From the IMG/VR virus record IMGVR_UViG_3300033273_000374, positions 64,001 to 128,000 of that record: a stretch of DNA of 64,000 nt, one strand, 5' to 3'. This DNA is from a virus. The notes beneath the pieces are model-generated. The model ran no database searches and was not told the DNA's origin. It worked only from the letters and a program-made list of their open reading frames with translations. Below, piece after piece: positions 14,190-61,754 of the stretch. The translations under genes and the position numbers were made by a program. Position 1 is the stretch's first letter. Each line of letters begins with the position of its first letter.

Positions 14190-14263
14190 TGGCAGAGGAT
14201 GTAGGAGTCGAACCCACGCCTGCAGGGTTGGAGCCTGCTGTGCTACCATAACACTTATCCCCT
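14190..14263 (-). tRNA. tRNA-Trp (CCA)
   Basis: A full cloverleaf of 74 nt with encoded 3' CCA. The acceptor AGGGGAT pairs with ATCCTCT, the discriminator is G and the anticodon loop is CTCCAAC, giving CCA. The T loop is TTCGACT. It lies just downstream of the HAD-family gene on the same strand, ahead of the bidirectional terminator. Confidence 0.95.
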
Positions 14264-14331
14264 GAAGTACAGATCAATCATTATCATTGCACATGCAAGC
14301 CATACTGCTCTGTACATTATTTGTGTGCGAG

Positions 14332-14907
14332 TCATTGTGTGGACACCATTTCGTAAATTTCTTTCCAGTTTTTAGCAAGTGGAATGTCTGTGTTGTGCAT
14401 GTTAAACCCATGTTCCATCAGTATAGGTTTGAGCCCAATTTTTTGTCCAGCAATTGCATTCTCATATTTGTCTTCTACCCAATACAATCCACTGCCTGCA
14501 TATTTGGCTAGTGCTGCATCTTTGTTGGCACCTGTTGCTAAACACGTAACAGTTGCAAATGTACCTTTACCAAACAGTTTGTCCAAGTTCCTTCTGCGTA
14601 ACTTTTTAGCATATCTGTTTGTTGACAAACTAGTGATAGCGATGAATGTCCATCCTTCGTTTGCCATGCGAGTTACATATTCAATTGCATCACGCAGCGG
14701 AGGCAAATAACCAATTGCTGCACTTTCGTTAAAGATCCTAATCAGTTTACGACCTTGTTCTAGTGTGATGCCATAACGCTCGCCAATGTCGTAGATGCCA
14801 TTGTGTTCTTTTATTTTGGTAAATCCATGCTCTTCCATGAATATATCAAACGCATATTCCCAATTGAGAACTACACCATCACAGTCTACAAGTATCGTTT
14901 TTTTCAT
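14332..14907 (-). CDS. HAD-superfamily phosphatase, 5'(3')-nucleotidase-like
   Basis: 191 residues. Motif I is LVDCDGVVLNWE (nucleophile Asp in DCDGV), motif II is AITSLSTNRYA and motif III/IV is LYWVEDKYENA. The layout fits small HAD enzymes such as phage 5'-nucleotidases or polynucleotide phosphatases; the substrate is uncertain. A Shine-Dalgarno site AAGGAGAG precedes the ATG, and a TTGACA / TATATT promoter with a 16-bp spacer lies upstream. Confidence 0.8.
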   Translation of the reverse strand: MKKTILVDCDGVVLNWEYAFDIFMEEHGFTKIKEHNGIYDIGERYGITLEQGRKLIRIFNESAAIGYLPPLRDAIEYVTRMANEGWTFIAITSLSTNRYAKKLRRRNLDKLFGKGTFATVTCLATGANKDAALAKYAGSGLYWVEDKYENAIAGQKIGLKPILMEHGFNMHNTDIPLAKNWKEIYEMVSTQ

Positions 14908-17785: not shown

Positions 17786-18523
17786 TTATTCCACCATGCC
17801 CAATAGTGTTTTATGTGTGTCACGCCAGTCTTTAACATGTATTGATTTTCCATTAACTATTGCATCTGCTAAGGGACGATCGTTTCCTGCAGGATCCATT
17901 TTGTCCCCAAAGAAGTAGATCATGTCTGTGTCTAAAAAGTCACGCAGTATCTGGCTTTTATCTCCGCCTTGTGGAAAAACGTCAATGCCAGTCTCGCCGC
18001 CAATTACTGCACAAACTTCTGGATAATGTGTTGTAATCATACGACTGAGTTTTTCACGTTCTTTATGCTCACAGTCCCATTCATAATAATTTTTGCGTTG
18101 TAGCCCAACTGCGCCACGACCTACAACACTAAAGTTTAGCATGCCAGTCCTTACTTCTACAGTTTTTCCATATTGGTAAGGGTATTGACTTAGATCAGCA
18201 ACTTGCATTAAAAAAGCTACCAGTTGCCCTGATGGTTTCCAATCACTGGTATAGGTATTTGTTTCGCCTTCCCACACCTCTGCACCGCTGCAGTTGTAAA
18301 CTCTTTTGCAAAGATTGTAAGTGTCTTCTCCAATTTGTTCAACTGTTTTGGGTTTATCGCTGCCAGTAACAAGGTAAACATTGTGTGACCGACAAAATGA
18401 GTTGAAGAAACTTTTAAATTCTTTGTCAATCTTACCTCTACTGGGTGTTAGAGTACCGTCAACATCAAATATATAATGAGTTTGCATGTTGTCAAAATGA
18501 TCTATGTCTTCTTGTGTGATCAT
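17786..18523 (-). CDS. Phosphomannomutase of the eukaryotic HAD type
   Basis: 245 residues. It should interconvert mannose-6-P and mannose-1-P for GDP-mannose synthesis. FDVDGTLTPSR (about 19-29) holds the nucleophile and acid Asp; VYNCSGAEVW, RTGMLNFSVVGR, IDVFPQGGDKSQ and FFGDKMDPAGNDRPL are the hallmark segments of PMM2-like enzymes (about 250 aa). The bacterial equivalent is usually the unrelated alpha-D-phosphohexomutase family. The ATG overlaps the stop of the cytidylyltransferase gene; a start at 18487 is also possible. Confidence 0.85.
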   Translation of the reverse strand: MITQEDIDHFDNMQTHYIFDVDGTLTPSRGKIDKEFKSFFNSFCRSHNVYLVTGSDKPKTVEQIGEDTYNLCKRVYNCSGAEVWEGETNTYTSDWKPSGQLVAFLMQVADLSQYPYQYGKTVEVRTGMLNFSVVGRGAVGLQRKNYYEWDCEHKEREKLSRMITTHYPEVCAVIGGETGIDVFPQGGDKSQILRDFLDTDMIYFFGDKMDPAGNDRPLADAIVNGKSIHVKDWRDTHKTLLGMVE

Positions 18524-18927
18524 TTTTCACACACTCTACGCCTAAGATCGCTGCTACTAAATCTGTGATCTCTTTTGTTAAAGTAGAGTTGTATGTCTCT
18601 TTTGCGACATATATCCTTGCCGGTAAACTCTTTGTCTCTGTATTCAACACCAAGTATACGCACATCAATATGATACATGCTGAGAATATCTTCTAGATCC
18701 TCTTCTGTAGCATAAGGAATAATTTCATCCACATAGCCAACTGCTTTAAGTTGTGTATAGCGTTCTACAATAGTTTGTATTGGGCTATTTTTTTCTGCCC
18801 TATCAACACTGGGATCAATTTGTAATCCGCATATGAGATAGTCACACTGTGCTTTTGCGTCTCGTAGCATTTGCACATGTCCAGCATGTAATAGATCAAA
18901 TGTGCTACATGTGAATCCTATTAACAA
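18520..18927 (-). CDS. Cytidylyltransferase-like nucleotidyltransferase
   Basis: 135 residues, the length of TagD-type glycerol-3-phosphate cytidylyltransferases. GFTCSTFDLLHAGHVQML contains the HAGH (HxGH) catalytic signature and HRFSSSDLRRR is the SSSxLR motif. It would join CTP or another NTP to a phosphorylated polyol or sugar. Translation is coupled to the phosphomannomutase gene by ATGA. Together they point to activated sugar or polyol precursors for surface glycans or modified DNA. Confidence 0.85.
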   Translation of the reverse strand: MLIGFTCSTFDLLHAGHVQMLRDAKAQCDYLICGLQIDPSVDRAEKNSPIQTIVERYTQLKAVGYVDEIIPYATEEDLEDILSMYHIDVRILGVEYRDKEFTGKDICRKRDIQLYFNKRDHRFSSSDLRRRVCEK

Positions 18928-34358: not shown

Positions 34359-34617
34359 CTCCTAACCGCGACATTTTTTTATTGATTTCGTTGATACGTT
34401 GCTGTTGTAGAGCAATTTTACGCTCAAGTGCTTGCACATAATGATAACTTGGTAGTTTGTTTTGAGTGCCATCTTCACCTAAGCTGATGAAATGATCAGC
34501 ACCTGCCCCTTTGATACCGCCAGCAACACGATTTGGATTCTTGTTGTTACTAGGCTGCTTTTGTGCTGGCTTCGTTGAGTATTGTCGTTGTATGTTGTTC
34601 ATAATCATATTTAGCAT
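34342..34617 (-). CDS. Hypothetical protein, about 86-91 aa
   Basis: Gln/Asn/Lys-rich N-terminus, a central SLGEDGTQNKLPSYHYVQAL and a C-terminal helix (RKIALQQQRINEINKKMSRL). In-frame ATGs at 34617, 34608 and 34602 are all possible; none has a clear Shine-Dalgarno site. The start lies inside the 3' end of uvdE. Function unknown. Confidence 0.6.
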   Translation of the reverse strand: MLNMIMNNIQRQYSTKPAQKQPSNNKNPNRVAGGIKGAGADHFISLGEDGTQNKLPSYHYVQALERKIALQQQRINEINKKMSRLGVDNNT

Positions 34618-35653
34618 TTACATTCTGTTGATACATTTGATTGTACAAACCAATGCTGGCAATCTGCTTGCATTTGCTTTCGCACATGATGTCAAACTGT
34701 TCGTTGAAACTCGTAGCCCATTCATTGACTGCATCATTCCAGAACATGTCACTGTGTGCTCTCAGTTTCTGCTTTTTGTAACCTTGTTCTAGTAGGTCTA
34801 CCAAAACCGGTCTATGGTCTTGTCTATAGCCGACGAGATAATCCTCACGACTGACGCTATAATGAATGACAGGCCTAACACCACGCCAACTGTCAATAAC
34901 ACGTCTAACACGATCATCCTCCACTTCTATGTATTCGCCACTGTTTATCCAATGGTGATGTATGTCCAGCACCAATGCTACATGTTCAGCAAGTTCTAGG
35001 CTTGCATCAAGCCCCCATTTGTTTTCGTCGTTCTCTATGGTAAGACAGTTGAGTGCTTCAGGTGATAGTTTGGGCAGTATGTGTTTGATACCTTCTGGCC
35101 CACGTCTACCTGATATGTGGACGTTGCATTTGAAGTCTTGCCAGTTTTTACCATAGCCCATCCACCTTGCAACATCAATATGGTATTCGTATTCTTCAAT
35201 GCTACGCTTTACAATATCATCATTGTCACTGGCAAGCACAACAAACTGGCCAGGGTGTGTACTAAGTCTCACATCGAGACGTCTAGCCAGTTCGCCAACC
35301 TTTGCGAAATGCTTTTCACAATAGTCAATCACATCAGGTAGGCGCCAAAAATAACTCCAGCTGGGCTCAGTATACACAGGAAGTACACCACTTCCAATTC
35401 TAACCATTCTAAGTTCATGAGGCAAACTACCTGTAAATTCTACCAAGTTGTAGTAGGCTTGGATATTGTATTCCATAATATCCCAAAGACGTTGCTCAGC
35501 AACTTCTCTAGTTTGTCTATTCAGCCACGTGACAGTTGTAGCACGACCATTGAGAGGTTGCTCAATCTCCTGCAACAGTTTTTTAGGACGCACCTCTTCT
35601 GGGTGCATGTACTTGCAGGCATAGCCTATGCGTTTTACATCTTGTCTAAACAT
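34550..35653 (-). CDS. uvdE: UV-damage endonuclease UvdE
   Basis: 367 residues, TIM-barrel UVDE. It nicks DNA 5' to UV photoproducts and other lesions using metal ions, starting repair. RIGYACKYM opens the barrel; RIGSGVLP, RLSTHPGQFVVLASDN, CLTIENDENKWG, ALVLDIHHHWIN and RAHSDMFWN carry metal-ligand His, Glu and Asp in family order. ATG 35653 is preferred to 35659, which lies in the -10 box of the promoter; the mRNA would then be leaderless. Confidence 0.92.
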   Translation of the reverse strand: MFRQDVKRIGYACKYMHPEEVRPKKLLQEIEQPLNGRATTVTWLNRQTREVAEQRLWDIMEYNIQAYYNLVEFTGSLPHELRMVRIGSGVLPVYTEPSWSYFWRLPDVIDYCEKHFAKVGELARRLDVRLSTHPGQFVVLASDNDDIVKRSIEEYEYHIDVARWMGYGKNWQDFKCNVHISGRRGPEGIKHILPKLSPEALNCLTIENDENKWGLDASLELAEHVALVLDIHHHWINSGEYIEVEDDRVRRVIDSWRGVRPVIHYSVSREDYLVGYRQDHRPVLVDLLEQGYKKQKLRAHSDMFWNDAVNEWATSFNEQFDIMCESKCKQIASIGLYNQMYQQNVNAKYDYEQHTTTILNEASTKAA

Positions 35654-35659
35654 ACACAC

Positions 35660-35687
35660 AATATAACAGGTTATAAACTGTTGTCAA
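35660..35687 (-). promoter_or_regulatory. Sigma70-like promoter for uvdE
   Basis: -35 TTGACA at 35687-35682, -10 TATATT at 35665-35660, spacer 16 bp. Six bases separate the -10 box from the ATG at 35653, so transcription would start at or next to the initiation codon. Confidence 0.7.
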
Positions 35688-35688
35688 C

Positions 35689-37065
35689 CTAGTATTTGCC
35701 TGTGTAGTTGCCTAGGAAATGCTGTAGGTCTTCTGGTGTGCCCAATCCCCACATGCCTGATCCTTCAATGTTTTTAACACGGATCTTACCGCCGTCTTCA
35801 ACTAATTCATTGAACACAGGACACACATAAAATTCGTTATTGGTGCGTATGTTCTTTTCAATCATACGTTCGGCACTAGAAACATATACACTACCATGTG
35901 CCCAATAATAGATACCAACAGTGGCATTAGTTGAGATGGGTTGTTTTTCAGCGACCTCACATACAAAACCATCTTCATCCAACTTGGCGTAACTCCACTT
36001 CGGATGCGTACTCTGGAAAGTGAGTATTCCTCCATCAACTCCTTCTGTGGTAAAAGCATAGAGAACTTCGTTTGAGTTCCATTCCACGAACTGGTCGCTG
36101 TTGGCAATGACAAGCGGTTCTTCATTGTTGATATACTCCTTTGCTAACAGTGTTGTACAGGCAGCACCTTCTGTGATGCCTTCAGTTTGCACAATGGTAC
36201 ATCCTGGTGCTACCATATTTAACACAGTTTCTAGATTGTATTTGTTGTAGTGTTCTTTCTGTACAATGAATATGTAGTTGGCGTCAATGTTCAAATTGTC
36301 CACAACTACCTGTATCATAGGTTTGTTGCCTACTTCTATCAATGGTTTGGGAAAGGTATATCCTTGTTCAGCAAAGCGACTGCCTGCGCCTGCCATTGGT
36401 ATTAGTACATTCATTGTTTTGCTCCGCCATGGTATACGTTGTTTGGGTTGTTCGTCATATTCTTCTATTGCATCCAGCACACGACTTAAACTTACATCAT
36501 GTGTGTCTGCTACTGCCAATAGGTGTGCACCTGCATCAAGCACAGCCTGTCTGCCTATGTGTGAATCCTCAATGATGAGTGTTTCACTGGGTTTAGCATT
36601 TGCTTTTAACATACATTCAAAGTACATTTCAAAGTGTGGCTTGGGTCTATTTACATCTTCGTTGCTGTACCAAAAGTCAAAGTATTCTATTATGCCTAGT
36701 TGTAGCAAACTCATTTTAACAGTGTCACGCACTGCGTTGCTGGCACACACCAATGTGTAGCCTCTGTCTTTGATTTCTCTACACATGTCCACAAAGTCTT
36801 GACGTGGTTGTACAGTTTCCTTTAGTATTTCAACAGTGTGCTTTTGCTTTGCTCTAGCAATTTCAGCATGACGGTCAGTGGGCAATCCTTTGCGCTCTGT
36901 GAGCATGTTCAGCTTGGACCTGGTGGGCAACCCGTCATAGGTGCTCAAATGTTCTTCTATTGTGATAGCATACTGTTTGCCCAATGCTCTGTTGAGTGCT
37001 TCATAGTGTGTTTGCTTGCTATCAATCAGCACGCCATCTAAATCAAATACTATCAGTTTGATCAT
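35689..37065 (-). CDS. Fusion of HAD phosphatase and sugar nucleotidyltransferase
   Basis: 458 residues, two domains. Residues 1-210 are a beta-phosphoglucomutase-like HAD enzyme: VFDLDGVLIDSK, VCASNA, RPKPHFEMY and IIEDSHIG. From about 228 a nucleotidyltransferase begins: NVLIPMAGAGSRFAEQGYTF with PKPLIEVGNKPM, then VIANSDQF and GIYYWAHG. It should remove or move a phosphate and activate a sugar-1-phosphate with an NTP. The neighbouring genes are glycan-related. Confidence 0.85.
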   Translation of the reverse strand: MIKLIVFDLDGVLIDSKQTHYEALNRALGKQYAITIEEHLSTYDGLPTRSKLNMLTERKGLPTDRHAEIARAKQKHTVEILKETVQPRQDFVDMCREIKDRGYTLVCASNAVRDTVKMSLLQLGIIEYFDFWYSNEDVNRPKPHFEMYFECMLKANAKPSETLIIEDSHIGRQAVLDAGAHLLAVADTHDVSLSRVLDAIEEYDEQPKQRIPWRSKTMNVLIPMAGAGSRFAEQGYTFPKPLIEVGNKPMIQVVVDNLNIDANYIFIVQKEHYNKYNLETVLNMVAPGCTIVQTEGITEGAACTTLLAKEYINNEEPLVIANSDQFVEWNSNEVLYAFTTEGVDGGILTFQSTHPKWSYAKLDEDGFVCEVAEKQPISTNATVGIYYWAHGSVYVSSAERMIEKNIRTNNEFYVCPVFNELVEDGGKIRVKNIEGSGMWGLGTPEDLQHFLGNYTGKY

Positions 37066-37492
37066 TCTTATACCGTTCTATATAATCACTGCATACACCA
37101 TCAAATGCATTTACGTCTATGTTGTCTATCTCTGGCATCACTGCTATAGTTCGTTTGTTTCCTATCTTGTTTGGGTATGCCCAAATCCAGCCTTTACTAG
37201 TTACTGTATAATCATCTTCCTGATGCCAAAAACAATGTATGTCCATGTTAAGTAATGCTTGTAATGCATCATAGTTTTTTGCATGACACCATAGTCTCTC
37301 ATCATGCAGGAAACTCCATTGCTTTACCAAGTATTGCGGTTCGTCATGTCCAAGGTAAAATTCTCTATCAATAAACCATAAATCTATTTCGCAATGGTAA
37401 CCTTTTGCCAGTGCTTGGTCTATGTATTCAATTGTGTTTTCACGTTCTGGCTGTTTTCCTGTGAGATTACCTCTGTGTGATATGTAGATCAT
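37043..37492 (-). CDS. Glycerophosphodiester phosphodiesterase-like protein
   Basis: 149 residues. ISHRGNLTGKQPERENT and CEIDLWFIDREFYLGHD reproduce the GDPD core (HRG...ENT...EID...HD). The domain is shorter than full GDPDs (about 240), so activity on glycerophosphodiesters is uncertain; a sugar-phosphate role is possible. The 3' end overlaps the HAD-transferase gene by 23 bp and the 5' end overlaps the upstream gene by 26 bp. Confidence 0.75.
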   Translation of the reverse strand: MIYISHRGNLTGKQPERENTIEYIDQALAKGYHCEIDLWFIDREFYLGHDEPQYLVKQWSFLHDERLWCHAKNYDALQALLNMDIHCFWHQEDDYTVTSKGWIWAYPNKIGNKRTIAVMPEIDNIDVNAFDGVCSDYIERYKNDQTDSI

Positions 37493-38093
37493 TTATCATG
37501 TCCTTTGTATCTTGAAACATCACTGTTGATATTTCGTCCCATGCCATTGGTTTTCTCCAGTCACTTATATTGGGCTGGCAAAACAAGAAAGTTGTTTTGA
37601 AAAAAGTTACAAACAACAGATTAAACTGCAGTATCCAAAAACTAGGATCTATTGCATGATGATCACTGCTCCAATAATTTGGTGTGTCTTTGTAAATATT
37701 ATTGTGTTTGCCTTCTGTGCTATAAAAGTCATGTCCAATCATGATGCATATGTCTGCACCTTGTTTGCAAGCAAGATGTACCGCATGCAATCCACTGCCC
37801 CAATGAAAATGTTTTGTCCATTTGTGCATTTGTTGATCCCACACAAAATCAGGTAGTTTTTTTACTTGGGGAGTTGCAAAATCTGCAAACCAGTCTGGTC
37901 GTGTGTGAATGTTTCCTGTGTAACCATTGTATAGTGCTTCTTGCACCATGCGTTTGTCACAACACACAAGTTCATCACATGTTATATCTCTGTGAATAGC
38001 ATTTGAACCATACAGTTTTCCGTATGATTTAAACTGTTCTAAATCTAAATCTTTTCTACTTTCGCCATTGCCAATACAAAATGCTATGTTCAT
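37467..38093 (-). CDS. Glycan-related protein, DUF115/glycosyltransferase-like
   Basis: 208 residues from ATG 38093 (MNIAFCIGNGESRKDLDLEQ), which overlaps the upstream stop as ATGA. The opening GNGESR followed by YGSNAIHRD resembles DUF115-type proteins linked to motility-associated glycosylation; GADICIMIGHDFYS follows. Substrate unknown. Confidence 0.6.
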   Translation of the reverse strand: MNIAFCIGNGESRKDLDLEQFKSYGKLYGSNAIHRDITCDELVCCDKRMVQEALYNGYTGNIHTRPDWFADFATPQVKKLPDFVWDQQMHKWTKHFHWGSGLHAVHLACKQGADICIMIGHDFYSTEGKHNNIYKDTPNYWSSDHHAIDPSFWILQFNLLFVTFFKTTFLFCQPNISDWRKPMAWDEISTVMFQDTKDMINDLHITQR

Positions 38094-39175
38094 TGCACAA
38101 CTCCAAAGCCACTCCAGCGTATACCATCCAAGCACACCCAACCAATTGGGTTGCCTTGTGTGGGTTTACTGTTGAGCACAATGTCTCCTTTCTTAGCGGC
38201 ATATCCAGGAACACTTGCACTTTCGCTGATGGTGCGTCCAAGTAGTTCTAGTTTGCTGATTGCCACACTACCATCACTGCGCACAGTAATACCCACTTTG
38301 TTGTTTGCTCCTATGTTGATGTCTTGTCGTCTACGTGTGCCAATGTACCCTTCTTGTGCTTTGTGTTTACCTATCACAACTTCAGTTTCTTGATCCCACA
38401 CTGTGAGTGCATCAGTAGGGTCCATGGTGTTGATACCAACCCTACGATTTCCTGGTGTAGTATACAGCACATCACTGAGCAGTGTTTCTCCACTAACTTC
38501 TAGTTCGTTGAAGTTTCCTGCTTTGGACTGTGATAGTTTTGTTTCTAATCTATTAATTTCTTCGTCATAACTACGTGGCACAGGAACACTAACCAATATG
38601 TCGTGTTTGATACTGTCGTATGTTTCTACATCAAGTTCCAAGTGCTTGACACTTAGATTGTTTACACTTATGCTGTCTGCAACCAGTTTATTTTCAACAA
38701 CAACATTATTATCAAGCACAGTCAGCTGAACATCTTTTGTAAAACTTTCAATACCGTCTATACGCAATTTGTCAACACCTTCAAGTCTGTTGATGTTGCA
38801 TCCTGTAAAATCTATTGCATCATGATTGATACTTGCTTGAGGAAATGTAAAACTTTTAACAAGTTGGTCTATGGTTTGTGTTAGTATTTTGTCTACTCTA
38901 TCACGCACATATTGTTGCATCTGTGGAGTATAACTGTTTACAGCCGCAGCACTGCGTTCTTCTAAACGTTTGCTGGCTGCATCGTTAATTGCAATAGCAT
39001 CAACTGCTTGACGTATCTGTGCATTGATATACTGTTGCAGACGAGGATCATCCATGCGCTGTTGCACCATGTTGCTTACAGCACCTGTGATATCATATGT
39101 TTCTAGTTCTGCTTGCAGTTGTTGTTGTATCAACTGCTCAATTTGTTCTTGAGCGGCTTCTCTTAGCCTATCCAT
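38090..39175 (-). CDS. Structural, fibre-like protein
   Basis: 361 residues. The N-terminal 120 residues are Gln-rich helix (coiled coil). A beta-rich middle uses terms seen in other phage fibres (NELEVSGETLLSDVLY; RRVGINTMDPTDALTVWD), and the end is SGFGVVQ. Probably a trimeric appendage protein. It lies downstream of a methyltransferase-like gene and upstream of the glycan genes. Confidence 0.75.
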   Translation of the reverse strand: MDRLREAAQEQIEQLIQQQLQAELETYDITGAVSNMVQQRMDDPRLQQYINAQIRQAVDAIAINDAASKRLEERSAAAVNSYTPQMQQYVRDRVDKILTQTIDQLVKSFTFPQASINHDAIDFTGCNINRLEGVDKLRIDGIESFTKDVQLTVLDNNVVVENKLVADSISVNNLSVKHLELDVETYDSIKHDILVSVPVPRSYDEEINRLETKLSQSKAGNFNELEVSGETLLSDVLYTTPGNRRVGINTMDPTDALTVWDQETEVVIGKHKAQEGYIGTRRRQDINIGANNKVGITVRSDGSVAISKLELLGRTISESASVPGYAAKKGDIVLNSKPTQGNPIGWVCLDGIRWSGFGVVQ

Positions 39176-39184
39176 TGATTTCTC

Positions 39185-39859
39185 CTAGAAGGAGATGTAA
39201 ACTATGTAGTCCTGATTCTTACTAAAGAGACTTTTGTACATCAACTTCTTTTCTACTTGAAAGTTTTTACTACCTAGGTCACTGGCAAACTTAGCCAGTT
39301 GCTTGAAATACATTGTACGTTTTGTCTGTTTGCTTACATGCACCAACTCATTGTCTTTGATTACGTGTGCTGTTTCTATCCACTGTTGTCTATCCTGTCC
39401 ATTCCACTGACGATGTTTTAATAGTATAGCATCACCATTTGAAATTTTCAACTGAAAAGGTTCATAAAATGTTCTTTGATTATAGGTCATGTTTTTGTAA
39501 TCTTTGATTGTGGTAAAGAAACCCATGCAGCAAAGTTTACTCAACATGGCCAACTTATCACGTTGCTCATCCTCTGTTTCGGCAACAGTTAGCCATTCGT
39601 CAGCAGCAATCACATAGTCAAAAGTTTCACCAGCAGCCAATAACTGTCCTGGATCACTTTCGCAGTCAACACAATCATAACCCAACTTGCGCAAGCCATG
39701 GCCCAAAAAATTTGTGCCTATGTTTAAAAACTTGCAATCTTTATCAAGTATCATAGTGCTTGGTCCAGCACTAAGAATTGTTTTGACTTTGACTTCGCTT
39801 GCTTCTGTCAATTGCTCAACATTGTCTACCATGCTGTAGACAAACTTATCAAAGTTCAT
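39185..39859 (-). CDS. SAM-methyltransferase-like protein
   Basis: 224 residues. CKFLNIGTNFLGHGLRKLG is a weak motif I, CVDCES a possible acidic strand and TFDYVIAADEWLT a motif IV-like strand. The GxGxG loop is degenerate, so activity is uncertain. The upstream region (39860-39969) carries the late promoter at 39899-39905. Confidence 0.6.
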   Translation of the reverse strand: MNFDKFVYSMVDNVEQLTEASEVKVKTILSAGPSTMILDKDCKFLNIGTNFLGHGLRKLGYDCVDCESDPGQLLAAGETFDYVIAADEWLTVAETEDEQRDKLAMLSKLCCMGFFTTIKDYKNMTYNQRTFYEPFQLKISNGDAILLKHRQWNGQDRQQWIETAHVIKDNELVHVSKQTKRTMYFKQLAKFASDLGSKNFQVEKKLMYKSLFSKNQDYIVYISF

Positions 39860-39898
39860 TCAATATTTTTCCAATTCGTATAGTAATATTCTTACACA

Positions 39899-39905
39899 TA
39901 TTTAT
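39899..39905 (-). promoter_or_regulatory. T4-type late promoter (ATAAATA)
   Basis: GATAAATA, 39 bp upstream of the ATG at 39859, in the divergent intergenic region. Confidence 0.6.
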
Positions 39906-39954
39906 CGTTATCTACAACTTATCATTCTAAATTTTATCCATCATTAAGTACGCA

Positions 39955-39962
39955 TATAAATA
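39955..39962 (+). promoter_or_regulatory. T4-type late promoter (TATAAATA)
   Basis: A perfect octamer that ends 7 bp before the ATG at 39970; the predicted start is one or two bases before the ATG. Confidence 0.7.
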
Positions 39963-39969
39963 TTCTACA

Positions 39970-41133
39970 ATGGATATTGAAACTTATCTCTCCTACAAAA
40001 TTTACAGCGAACACCTCAACAATAGAAGTCTAATACTAGATTTCCCTTCAGTTCAAAAAGACGGAACACAAACAGGACACAAGCCACACAACAATGGAGA
40101 ATCTGGCCCGGGTTTTTGGAGTGTACCGTATGTATATGGAAGATACAAACACACAACTATTACCGACAAATATTTTGCCACACAAGATTATAACAACTGG
40201 ATAAGTGTACAAAACAAAAAAATTTTTTTAAATCACAGTTACGAACCTGTTGACTATGTAAATGACCAGTTCTTCTGGAATCCAGATTTTATTAAACCAA
40301 AAGATCTATTTTGTAATGCAAATGAAGATACTAACGATCGGATATTTTTACTACACAGTGAAAAAAACAGCAAAGATGTTGAAATTGCTATAGAAAATGT
40401 TTCATCTAGTTTGCAAATAACACCTGTGCATTGGTGTGCAAATGGTTATGTGTGTGCAGAACATTGGTACAAAAACTTTGGTATAGATATGTTTGCAGAC
40501 TGGCGTAGGCCTATAAAACACAAGTATGTGTGTATGGCACGTCAGTTTAATTCAGCAAAAAAATACAGACTTGAATTTTTAAATATGATCGATACCACAA
40601 AAGGCTGTTATAGTTTGCTAGAACGTTGTCTAGAAACAGGCATGACACCCAATGATGTTTTACCCAGCAACACTGTTTCTCCTTACAGTTTTGACGATCA
40701 CGGCAACGACAGTGCCTACATTGAAATGCGATTTGAAACACCTGTTAACACAAGTTTTTTGCATGTGGTTATGGAGAGTGTGTTTGATTGTACCAAACAA
40801 TATCTCACAGAAAAAATATTTAAACCAATAGTGCTGCAACAACCGTTTGTGTTAGTTGGACCTGCACATAATCTTGAATATCTACGTGAGTATGGGTTTC
40901 AAACTTTTGACCAATGGTGGGACGAAAGTTATGATACTATAGAAGATCCGCAAGAAAGATTGCATGCTTGTGCTAAAATTGTAAATAACATTGCTAACAT
41001 GGACACAGCAGATCTATATGAACTGCGTGAAAAAATGAGTAGTGTGCTAGAACACAACAGACGTCATTTCTACACACAGTTTGGTGACATTGTTTGGAAA
41101 GAACTAGGCTCTAACCTTTCTGCTGTTCTTTAA
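39970..41133 (+). CDS. Glycosyltransferase-like protein (GT10-like C-terminus)
   Basis: 387 residues. The C-terminal SFLHVVMESVFDCTKQYLTE followed by KIFKPIVLQQPFVLVGP resembles the donor-binding motif of fucosyltransferase-like GT10 enzymes. The N-terminal half has no clear motif. It would add a sugar to a phage or host glycan. It has no Shine-Dalgarno site but starts next to a late promoter. The 3' end overlaps the convergent small gene by 23 bp. Confidence 0.7.
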   Translation: MDIETYLSYKIYSEHLNNRSLILDFPSVQKDGTQTGHKPHNNGESGPGFWSVPYVYGRYKHTTITDKYFATQDYNNWISVQNKKIFLNHSYEPVDYVNDQFFWNPDFIKPKDLFCNANEDTNDRIFLLHSEKNSKDVEIAIENVSSSLQITPVHWCANGYVCAEHWYKNFGIDMFADWRRPIKHKYVCMARQFNSAKKYRLEFLNMIDTTKGCYSLLERCLETGMTPNDVLPSNTVSPYSFDDHGNDSAYIEMRFETPVNTSFLHVVMESVFDCTKQYLTEKIFKPIVLQQPFVLVGPAHNLEYLREYGFQTFDQWWDESYDTIEDPQERLHACAKIVNNIANMDTADLYELREKMSSVLEHNRRHFYTQFGDIVWKELGSNLSAVL

Positions 41134-51792: not shown

Positions 51793-52491
51793 TTATTTAT
51801 CGAGAATCTCAAACGTAGGCCAACTGTAAAAATTGATTTGATCTCGACTGTGTTCTGTGCGTGTGCCAACAACTGTGATTGTGTTTTGTATTAGGCTCTG
51901 CCAGATGTTGCGAAATGGATTGTCCATGTCCATTTCAATTAGGTTTGCTCTGTTATTTTCGTCTTCAAACCAATAGCACAAATATTCTTTTCTGTCTTTG
52001 CTTTTGCTTATGCGTCTTGTTTTTTTGACATGCATACCTAAGAATGTAAGCAATGAACGTGTATCACGTGGACGTGTTGTTTGCAATTGTTTGTTAGTAA
52101 ATTCTTCAGTGTTGCACTGATACTTGATATCTTCTAGTGTTTTATCTTCCATGTACATTCTCGGTAGACTCATCAATTGTCTTATTTCAGTGGTAACATA
52201 TGTTTGTTTATTTTCGCTCAACAGTGCCAGCAGATCACGTCTAAAGGTGGTGTTTAACACACCCTTTATGCTATACATCATGTATTTGTTTTTATAAAAC
52301 TTACGTATCTCTTTTGCTTGGTAAACAAAGTCAGGCATTTCCATGTCATGATGTTCGCACAATTGGTTACTTGCTTCATTATCAAATATCATACGTGCTG
52401 GTTCTAAATCTAAATAGTGCATCAGCAGTGCAACTGCAATTGGATCGTAATCGTATTCACCGGGTTGACTGTTTAGGTCAAACAGCATCAT
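51793..52491 (-). CDS. Hypothetical protein, 232 aa
   Basis: Soluble, Lys/Arg/Met-rich, with FDLNSQPGEYDYDPIAVALL at the N-terminus and a Lys-rich middle (HVKKTRRISKSKDRKEY). No family recognised; ATG 52488 is an alternative start. It overlaps the end of guaC by 4 bp and shares its early-type transcript. Confidence 0.7.
   Translation of the reverse strand: MMLFDLNSQPGEYDYDPIAVALLMHYLDLEPARMIFDNEASNQLCEHHDMEMPDFVYQAKEIRKFYKNKYMMYSIKGVLNTTFRRDLLALLSENKQTYVTTEIRQLMSLPRMYMEDKTLEDIKYQCNTEEFTNKQLQTTRPRDTRSLLTFLGMHVKKTRRISKSKDRKEYLCYWFEDENNRANLIEMDMDNPFRNIWQSLIQNTITVVGTRTEHSRDQINFYSWPTFEILDK
51794..51800 (-). promoter_or_regulatory. T4-type late promoter (ATAAATA)
   Basis: GATAAATA, 7 bp from the ATG at 51786 and overlapping the stop of the upstream gene; predicted mRNA nearly leaderless. 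Confidence 0.65.
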
Positions 52492-53573
52492 TCAAAAATC
52501 CTGTTGTGTGTATCTACACACCTAATAAATGTTGCGCACTTAGGCAGATGTTTTAGTTTTGCAGCACCTACATATGTACAACTACTTCGCACACCTCCCA
52601 ATAGATCTTGTACTGTTTTTGCAATATTACCCTTGAAAGGCACTAGTACTTCTCTACCTTCGCTGCTACGGTAATCTTTGAGACCGCCAAAGTGTTTTTT
52701 ATTAGCAGCATCAGAACTCATTCCATAGAACTGTACAAACTGCTTTCTCTCAATGACATTCTTTTCAGTGTCTTTGTCAATTTCGTTGGTTTGATAAAAT
52801 TTAGTAATTACTTCTCCGCCGCCTTCGAGGTGTCCTGCGAGCATTCCTCCGAGCATGACGAAGTCTGCACCGCCCGCAAATGCCTTAGCAACATCGCCAG
52901 GGCAAGTACAACCACCATCTGCAATAATGTGACCTCCCAAGCCGTGGGCGGCATCAGCGCACTCAATGACAGCAGATAACTGAGGATAACCCACGCCAGT
53001 TTGAATACGAGTAGTACATACACTACCGGGACCAATACCAACTTTAACAATGTCTGCTCCTCTTAGTATAAGTTCTTGTGTTTGGTCTGCTGTTACAACA
53101 TTACCTGCAATGATTGTAATCTTAGGATACTCTTCGCGAAATTGTGCAACAAAATTTAAGAAGCGTTCACTGTAGCCATTTGCTACATCAATGCACACAT
53201 ATTTTATGCTACGTGTACCTGCGTTAACTGCACGGAACTTTGCAGCATCTTCGTCTGTGATACCCATACTGTATGCTGCGTATTCTGCCCTTTGCGGGTG
53301 AAATTCCGTAAAAAAATCTACCAGTTCTGCAATACTGTAGGTTTTAACCAAACAGGTAAACAGTCCTAGTTTGCCCAATTCATCTGCTATTTCAAACGTA
53401 CCAACACCATCCATGTTTGCTGCCATGATTGGAATACGTTCAAATGTTTGTGTGCTGTTTCTAAATGAGTGCATGCGTTCTAATCGCACTTCTTTGCGTG
53501 AACTGAGTGTGCTACGTTTTGGGCGTAAAAGCACGCCACTGTAATCTAGTTTTACATCCTGTTCTATGTTCAT
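52488..53573 (-). CDS. guaC: GMP reductase
   Basis: 361 residues (E. coli GuaC 347). It converts GMP to IMP and ammonia with NADPH. Catalytic Cys186 lies in GIGPGSVCTTR at the same number as in E. coli, and GGCTCPGDVAKAFAGGADFV, MLGGMLAGH and FYGMSS are family segments. No CBS domain is present, and the sequence is closer to GuaC than to IMP dehydrogenase. In a phage it could rebalance purines from degraded host nucleic acid. Promoter at 53597-53625. Confidence 0.93.
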   Translation of the reverse strand: MNIEQDVKLDYSGVLLRPKRSTLSSRKEVRLERMHSFRNSTQTFERIPIMAANMDGVGTFEIADELGKLGLFTCLVKTYSIAELVDFFTEFHPQRAEYAAYSMGITDEDAAKFRAVNAGTRSIKYVCIDVANGYSERFLNFVAQFREEYPKITIIAGNVVTADQTQELILRGADIVKVGIGPGSVCTTRIQTGVGYPQLSAVIECADAAHGLGGHIIADGGCTCPGDVAKAFAGGADFVMLGGMLAGHLEGGGEVITKFYQTNEIDKDTEKNVIERKQFVQFYGMSSDAANKKHFGGLKDYRSSEGREVLVPFKGNIAKTVQDLLGGVRSSCTYVGAAKLKHLPKCATFIRCVDTHNRIFE

Positions 53574-53995: not shown

Positions 53996-54424
53996 TTAGC
54001 CGTCAATTGCAATCTTGCGCGGTTTCTTTTCTTCAGGAATAATACGCTCTAGTGCAATATAGAGCATACCGTTCTCAAGTTTAGCACCGTTAACGACTAC
54101 ATCATCTGCTAGGGTAAAATTGCGCTTGAACTTGCGTTGTGCAATACCACGATGTATAAAGCCAATTTTTTCATCATTGTCTTGTGGTTCGTGAGTGATT
54201 GTTAACACGCCTTCTGCAACTTCAATTTCCAAGTCTTCCAGTTTTACACCTGCTAGTGCAATTTCAATTTGGAAATTGTTACCGTCTTTTACAATGTTGT
54301 AAGGTGGGTATCCACTGCTGGTGGCTTGATGTTCTAGATAACGATGCATGTTATCAAACATACGATCAAAGCCTACAGCGTAAGGTGTTAGTTTATTGAT
54401 GTCGAGTGAAGTTAATCTTGTCAT
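53996..54424 (-). CDS. Small heat-shock protein Hsp20/IbpA-like
   Basis: 142 residues. The alpha-crystallin domain (about 42-132) includes YNIVKDGNNFQIEIALAGV, VAEGVLTITHE, FIHRGIAQRKFKRNFTLAD and the conserved LENGMLYIALER. ATP-independent holdase that keeps unfolded proteins soluble. Its leader carries a ROSE-like thermometer hairpin at the ribosome site (54428-54455). Behind a late promoter (54539-54545) and downstream of rpsU. Confidence 0.93.
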   Translation of the reverse strand: MTRLTSLDINKLTPYAVGFDRMFDNMHRYLEHQATSSGYPPYNIVKDGNNFQIEIALAGVKLEDLEIEVAEGVLTITHEPQDNDEKIGFIHRGIAQRKFKRNFTLADDVVVNGAKLENGMLYIALERIIPEEKKPRKIAIDG

Positions 54425-61396: not shown

Positions 61397-61416
61397 ATTT
61401 GAAACTCCTCTAATGG

Positions 61417-61424
61417 TATTTATA
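61417..61424 (-). promoter_or_regulatory. T4-type late promoter (TATAAATA)
   Basis: A perfect octamer 20 bp upstream of the ATG at 61396. Confidence 0.7.
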
Positions 61425-61427
61425 AAG

Positions 61428-61452
61428 AAAAAGCACCCATTAAGGGTGCTTT
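61428..61452 (-). terminator. Intrinsic terminator of the tmRNA gene
   Basis: AAAGCACCC / GGGTGCTTT, nine pairs with a five-base loop; the 3' arm runs into five T on the minus strand. Confidence 0.9.
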
Positions 61453-61718
61453 AGGTGCCGGATTCTGTTTCGAGGCTCCGGCGGGCCCAGTGGATTATGC
61501 CGCTAAAGGCATATCCTCATCTGCAAAATTATCGTTTGCGTTTGTTTTGTTTGCTTGATTTACGGTCATCGCCTACCGGTAACTCCACGTTCTCTATTGC
61601 ATCAGTCGATCCCTATCACCCCCTCAAAGCACACTCAGCGAATGTGTTTTAAGTGAATGGTGGAGGTGGGGAGAATTGAACTCCCGTCCTGCCTGCCGTC
61701 AATTGGCTTCAACGTTAC
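61430..61718 (-). ncRNA. ssrA: Circularly permuted two-piece tmRNA
   Basis: The tRNA 3' part comes first: T arm GGGAG-TTCAATT-CTCCC, acceptor CACCTCC, A, CCA ending at 61658. After a 34-nt spacer (61624-61657) the coding piece begins at 61623 with GGGGGTG, which pairs with CACCTCC through a G3:U70 alanine pair. The tag frame ends TAA at 61495-61497 and encodes ANDNFADEDMPLAA (or five residues more if the first GCA, 61554, is the resume codon). The order is that of alphaproteobacterial permuted tmRNAs. It rescues stalled ribosomes and tags proteins for Clp proteases. Late promoter at 61724-61731, terminator at 61428. Confidence 0.93.
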
Positions 61719-61723
61719 AAGTA

Positions 61724-61731
61724 TATTTATA
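61724..61731 (-). promoter_or_regulatory. T4-type late promoter of the tmRNA
   Basis: A perfect TATAAATA; the start point would be near 61718, giving a precursor of about 290 nt. Confidence 0.7.
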
Positions 61732-61754
61732 GCAGATAATTACATCTTAGTCAA

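Follow-up and report, generated by a model that had tools for sequence, protein, structure and literature searches.

The minus strand at 61754-61425 of the window (the whole 64-kb stretch of DNA analysed, corresponding to bases 64001-128000 of a 202,913-base virus record) had been described as carrying a phage-encoded, circularly permuted tmRNA in two pieces, transcribed late in infection of an alphaproteobacterial host. The locus raises the questions of whether this gene is complete, how it is transcribed, where its parts came from and what it says of the host.

A complete circularly permuted tmRNA gene was found. ARAGORN and Infernal with the Rfam alpha_tmRNA model (RF01849) had been proposed as checks and both recovered it: ARAGORN called one permuted tmRNA on the minus strand (61404-61752) with the tag ANDNFADEDMPLAA, and RF01849 scored 76.5 bits (gathering 50). 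The model for permuted tmRNA, RF04321 (tmRNA_permuted), matched over its full length of 213 positions at 61718-61495 with 110.3 bits (gathering 47, E 1.2e-20), which together with the ARAGORN call bears out the permuted two-piece order. The beta_tmRNA model (RF01850) reached 85.8 bits (gathering 84), so that alpha and beta alike exceed their own cut-offs, and the cyanobacterial tmRNA model gave 27.8 bits, under its gathering score of 70. Genes for a T4-type terminase, a clamp loader and a baseplate are present in the virus record, which supports the gene being phage-encoded.

The locus as a whole very probably represents a functional tmRNA gene in permuted order, belonging to an aquatic jumbo phage of the T4 type, equipped with a promoter and a terminator of its own and mosaic in descent. 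The gene is intact in all testable respects, and a two-piece phage tmRNA is a kind already known; new are the mosaic origin and, more importantly, the genes nested in the spacers of relatives. As a relative of the PA5oct group of jumbo phages, the virus adds a clean example of a two-piece tmRNA borne by a phage.

Parts and helices of the gene

All parts are read on the minus strand. The promoter region has a -35 box of sigma70 type, TTGACT (61749-61754), and 17 nt from it the octamer TATAAATA (61724-61731), which contains the -10 box (TATAAA, 61731-61726) and is also an exact fit to the T4 late-promoter octamer. The acceptor piece (61658-61718) consists of the GUAAC strand of the long helix, the T arm, CACCUCC, the discriminator A and an encoded CCA (61660-61658). 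It is followed by an intervening spacer of exactly 34 nt (61624-61657), a hairpin with a fold z of -3.2 in which no nested ORF was found. The 5' part of the coding piece (61540-61623) contains GGGGGUG, a D-loop-like GGGAUCGAC, the GUUAC strand, the first pseudoknot stem (CGGU/ACCG) and a leader to the resume codon. The tag frame (61495-61539) encodes ANDNFADEDMPLAA in codons 61539-61498 and ends with TAA at 61497-61495, and the 3' domain (61453-61494) forms the hairpin GCCGGA/TCCGGC, with an AACAGAA loop (GCCTCGAAACAGAA). The gene ends in an intrinsic terminator (61425-61452), the hairpin of which (61452-61430) has a 9-bp stem and a 5-nt loop and is followed by a T-rich tail (z -4.4). The RNA from 61722 to 61428 folded better than 200 of 200 shuffles (z -2.8).

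The CCA, the 34-nt spacer, GGGGGTG, the G3:U70 pair, the tag frame and the terminator all lie where the preliminary description had put them. The acceptor and coding pieces do pair: GGGGGTG (61623-61617) matches CACCTCC at all seven positions, with G3:U70 as the third pair. The T stem of the window's copy has five of five pairs, and the helix within the long stem adjoining GUAAC has two mismatches relative to the Rfam model.

Viral contigs were scanned with the spacer motif of the window's copy, giving 23 loci, hereafter called lineage A relatives. An alignment of 13 distinct sequences (the window, eight of the 23 loci, and L018, L042, L048 and L082) was used to assess covariation. Standard pairs were formed in 95.4 % of the cells of the named helices and 11 pairs had changed on both sides; none of 500 shuffles reached the observed value on any of five measures, and slid controls were all far lower. 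In the T stem four of the five pairs had changed on both sides with 100 % of the cells paired, and the seven acceptor pairs were invariant and hold no covariation information, since the sequences had been found by that motif. A scan of viral contigs for permuted tmRNAs gave at least 120 matches. Among the matches listed, a 3' hairpin with an AACAGAA-type loop was present at 101 of 140 viral loci, with 54 different stem pairs, the 39 loci lacking it including chance pattern matches and contig ends.

The window's copy shares with the tmRNAs of RF04321, RF01849 and RF01850 the permuted order, the acceptor and T arm, the tag frame and the 3' hairpin with its AACAGAA loop, and differs from the alpha and beta two-piece tmRNAs of cells in residing in a phage. 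In the available text of the report on the Methylophilales phage Melnitz, 53 of 133 phage tmRNA structures from 18,146 genomes are two-piece, 50 of them being marine or aquatic (PMC9004378, 2022); the available text of a tmRNA database paper gives 79 phage tmRNAs (PMC11915505). Melnitz likewise encodes a two-piece tmRNA, and its record scored 113.4 bits with RF04321. It is a 141-kb phage in which, according to the same available text (PMC9004378), the tmRNA precedes a transcription coactivator and a glutamine riboswitch is reported, whereas the tmRNA of the window precedes a thermonuclease gene in a 203-kb record.

Promoter and predicted action

The preliminary description had placed a perfect octamer under the heading of a late promoter. 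The exact TATAAATA is present at 61731-61724, and that part of the description stands; the word late is unsupported, since a TTGAC(A/T) box 16-17 nt before the -10 box was found in all 24 members compared (the window plus 23 lineage loci, many of them near-copies, with some ten different upstream sequences as judged by eye), whereas the exact octamer was found in 11 of the 24. The octamer alone is a weak signal, with eight copies in the window against 4.6 expected. The arrangement TTGAC-18-TATAAA occurs once in the window, against 0.05 expected, and of the eight octamers only the one preceding the tmRNA has a -35 box. Such conservation marks a sigma70-type promoter, of which TATAAATA forms the -10 part, with a possible T4-late element overlapping it.

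Transcription from a T4-type late promoter, with TATAAATA read by a late sigma factor of the phage and the tmRNA serving late-stage ribosome rescue, is thus an unlikely reading, even with the exact octamer in front of the gene. A T4-type late promoter has this octamer and lacks a -35 box, and here TTGACT lies 17 nt upstream. Among the matches listed, TATAAATA was found upstream at 37 of 140 viral places, and at 34 of these 37 TTGAC is also present at promoter spacing, which again speaks against a late promoter. The earlier proposal of late-stage rescue depended on the late promoter and is left unsupported with it. The phage may nevertheless use promoters of the late type elsewhere, as other copies of TATAAATA without a -35 box stand just before genes in the window, and this counts in favour of the late reading. 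One such copy on the minus strand (27525-27518) is just before a tail-fibre-like gene and another (61424-61417) just before the gene of a 50-aa basic protein downstream of the tmRNA; both are candidate T4-type late promoters. The latter belongs to the next gene (61396-61244), which has its own octamer past the terminator, and the tmRNA is therefore a unit by itself.

Host RNA polymerase is predicted to start at about 61719 from the sigma70-type promoter, the timing being likewise a prediction. Host tRNA-processing enzymes would, as in known two-piece tmRNAs, cut after CCA and before GGGGGUG and so drop the 34-nt hairpin spacer, and the two pieces would stay together through the 7-bp acceptor stem and the long helix, the pairing of which was observed. 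If the known pathway applies, host AlaRS would charge the tmRNA via G3:U70, host SmpB would deliver it to stalled ribosomes and ANDNFADEDMPLAA would mark the broken protein for host proteases. The likely benefit is that ribosomes are kept available while infection damages mRNAs. SmpB was found neither in the phage's own record nor in 21 phage records, mostly of tmRNA carriers, and host SmpB must therefore serve.

A phage record without SmpB would also suit a decoy, an RNA whose tRNA-like part sequesters host SmpB or AlaRS and blocks trans-translation in the host, and a precedent exists in the tRNA-like-only RNA of phage DS6A (available text of PMC4131195 and PMC11915505). The DS6A RNA is likewise a phage-borne relative of tmRNA, but it lacks the tag part, whereas the window's copy is complete (available text of PMC4131195). 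A decoy needs no open tag frame ending in AA, no resume codon and no covarying 3' hairpin, all of which are kept here and in relatives, making this function quite improbable. Slightly less probable still is a drifting passenger copied from a host genome. Phages do pick up tRNA-type genes, and cellular permuted tmRNAs exist, one of which was seen here: a scan of genome contigs with the motif gave a single match, a chromosomal permuted tmRNA of Holosporaceae, but with a different tag. Against a drifting passenger are the compensatory changes in the helices and the sharing of the gene by related phage contigs. A search for a cellular DNA source gave matches in 57 of 398 Pseudomonadota genomes (E 0.01), a thin sampling of possible hosts, and in none of them did the match cover more than a short stretch, in most cases of about 37 nt. 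These matches lie mostly around the T arm and acceptor and were set aside as homology of that arm only.

Relatives, host and mosaic descent

The terminase is nearest to that of Pseudomonas jumbo phages of the PA5oct group (53.8 %), followed by Sinorhizobium phage Phosso (51.4 %) and Agrobacterium phage Atu_ph07 (50.9 %), and the clamp loader is also nearest to the PA5oct group (57.2 %). Among seven related isolate records, permuted tmRNAs were found in Xanthomonas phage XacN1 (two copies) and in Phosso and were absent from PA5oct, RAS14, Atu_ph07, Paride and Callisto; with five of seven lacking one, the permuted tmRNA is not essential to this phage group. One-piece tmRNA matches in the seven records were all below the cut-off. 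A search with the tmRNA DNA for isolate relatives returned seven of 50,697 records, with matches of 35-43 bases or less, and was uninformative.

The alphaproteobacterial host proposed earlier does not follow from the gene. Cut-offs are exceeded with the alpha as well as the beta model, the isolates with the closest terminases infect Pseudomonas, and permuted tmRNAs are found also in XacN1 and in Melnitz, so that carrying one does not tell the host. The tmRNA of Xanthomonas itself is one-piece, and XacN1 thus shows that a phage with a permuted tmRNA need not have an alphaproteobacterial host. It is plausible that the phage tag differs from the tags of its host.

The tRNA-like part is closest to that of L087 and L123, with L087 93.9 % identical over 61734-61523; L087, though, has the tag ANENFALAA and a different 3' domain. 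Exact copies of a 20-mer from the 3' domain (61479-61460) were found in 74 other viral contigs, and the tmRNAs sharing this 20-mer, hereafter lineage B, mostly have the acceptor GGGGGCG and often the tag ANDNFAPEMRLAA. A comparison by segments, with cuts shifted 2 nt from the true borders, gave for the acceptor piece 62/63 (98 %) to L123 of lineage A against 47/63 (75 %) to the best of lineage B, and for the coding piece before the tag 79/82 (96 %) to L128 of lineage A against 65/82 (79 %). The spacer is identical to that of L132 of lineage A (34/34, 100 %; best of lineage B 24/34, 71 %) and the 3' domain is closest to L179 of lineage B (36/39, 92 %; best of lineage A 17/39, 44 %), identities that are inflated because loci were collected by patterns in these two segments; the telling ones are those of the segments outside the collection patterns. 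The tag segment is intermediate (78 and 82 %). Most likely the tRNA-like part derives from lineage A and the 3' domain from lineage B, the split between the segments placing the presumed recombination in or near the tag. Recombination there would let tags change while the ribosome-binding part stays.

Even closely related tmRNAs of lineage A have different tags (ANENFALAA, one of 24 aa, one of 30 aa and ANENFASEDLRLAA), and a degenerate pattern for ANDNFADEDMPLAA found no match in other viral contigs. Among the matches listed, ARAGORN called 92 of 139 viral loci (L002-L140), giving 55 distinct tags, 54 of which end in AA. By length the viral tags form two classes, one of 8-14 and one of 22-30 aa, an example being ANDKALDNVSFVNFGEQKDVRLSEDFALAA. 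Many permuted phage tmRNAs escape ARAGORN: of the 47 uncalled loci 32 have a genuine T-arm context, L087, L003, L071 and L018 among them.

The surroundings of the gene vary. In L003, L018 and L087 the tmRNA follows a 5'-nucleotidase gene, and in L018 nucleotidase, tmRNA and thermonuclease stand in a row; in the window a 5'-nucleotidase gene and a tRNA-Trp lie together at 14190-14907, 47 kb from the tmRNA. The permuted tmRNA of L018, with a thermonuclease 75 % identical, is about 0.7 kb before the thermonuclease gene. A partnership of tmRNA and thermonuclease, which lie near each other in the window, in L018 and at several other loci, was considered and set aside, as the Melnitz nuclease is about 34 kb away. 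Elsewhere in the window there are metabolic and chaperone genes, resembling those of GMP reductase (52488-53573), Hsp20 (53996-54424) and heptose adenylyltransferase (18520-18927).

Nested ORFs in the spacers of related tmRNAs

Lineage B loci had spacers far longer than needed, with ORFs in them, and two further viral scans were made on that account. At least 444 loci were examined, 401 of which have a full T stem, acceptor stem and TCGA motif. Among the matches listed there were 207 distinct spacers of at least 70 nt (266 loci), and an ATG ORF took up 70 % or more of the spacer in 76 of these 207, dinucleotide shuffles giving 12.6 and the reverse strand 10; the 76 of 207 is not a prevalence, as most long-spacer loci had been fetched for their long spacers. 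In nine ORF families, chosen by motif from the same data and without a formal test, pN/pS was 0.00-0.45 in the ORF frame and 0.47-1.57 in the other two frames in eight of the families, the ninth (two sequences) giving no value.

The ends of ORF-bearing spacers pair through at least six Watson-Crick pairs in 77 of 84 cases, against 29 % with swapped partners. All ten ORF-bearing loci examined with RF04321 passed, and the longest ORF matched PHROGs at seven of ten loci, nine of which are shared with the RF04321-tested ten. Small ORFs nested within the closing stem were seen in L190, L228, L410, L188, L432, L263, L202, L215, L371 and L381, with spacers of 107-267 nt, and in others. L203 has a 471-nt spacer with a homing-endonuclease-like ORF (phrog_655, E 1.8e-11), and its tmRNA still passes RF04321 (79.9 bits). 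The spacer ORF of L208 is related to a phage family whose function is unknown (phrog_16066, E 6.9e-10). Eight of ten spacer ORFs searched had no match, and for two spacer-ORF families no match was found in isolate phages. Some of the ORFs stop inside the spacer and others 13 nt into the coding piece, in which case cutting by RNase P would remove the stop codon.

We lean towards reading the permuted tmRNAs of aquatic phages as a modular platform and not as passengers, with an exchanged tag and 3' domain and a spacer that nests small genes, the transcript serving as both precursor and mRNA. A ribosome-binding site may often accompany the nested ORFs, which fall into many families without relation to one another; a membrane protein and a fragment of a homing endonuclease are among them. 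An mRNA left without a stop by RNase P could have its product tagged by the same tmRNA, amounting to a built-in sensor of tmRNA activity, a logic comparable to that of ArfA. The 34-nt hairpin spacer of the window would, on the modular reading, be the empty form. If true, the nesting is a new form of gene packing and could couple small phage proteins to tmRNA maturation or ribosome rescue. No report of protein genes nested in permuted tmRNA spacers was found in the open-licence literature; the available text of PMC11915505 names as spacer contents a tRNA gene and a repetitive element, and uses neither 'open reading frame' nor 'ORF'. A loose long-spacer pattern applied to cells matched in 122 of 385 Alphaproteobacteria genomes, most of the matches shown having the appearance of G+C-rich chance.

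Among isolates, the jumbo phages XacN1 and Phosso resemble the window in carrying permuted tmRNAs (RF04321, 123.2 and 113.3 bits) and differ from it in their tags, that of XacN1 being ANANTFDYALAA, and in their much longer spacers. The Phosso gene (349596-350198, L153/L167), with a spacer of several hundred nt, is unannotated and was missed by ARAGORN. At 34500-40500 in XacN1 (L166/L152) a permuted tmRNA and a GOLLD RNA (227 bits), both unannotated, lie beside two tRNAs with the anticodon CUA.
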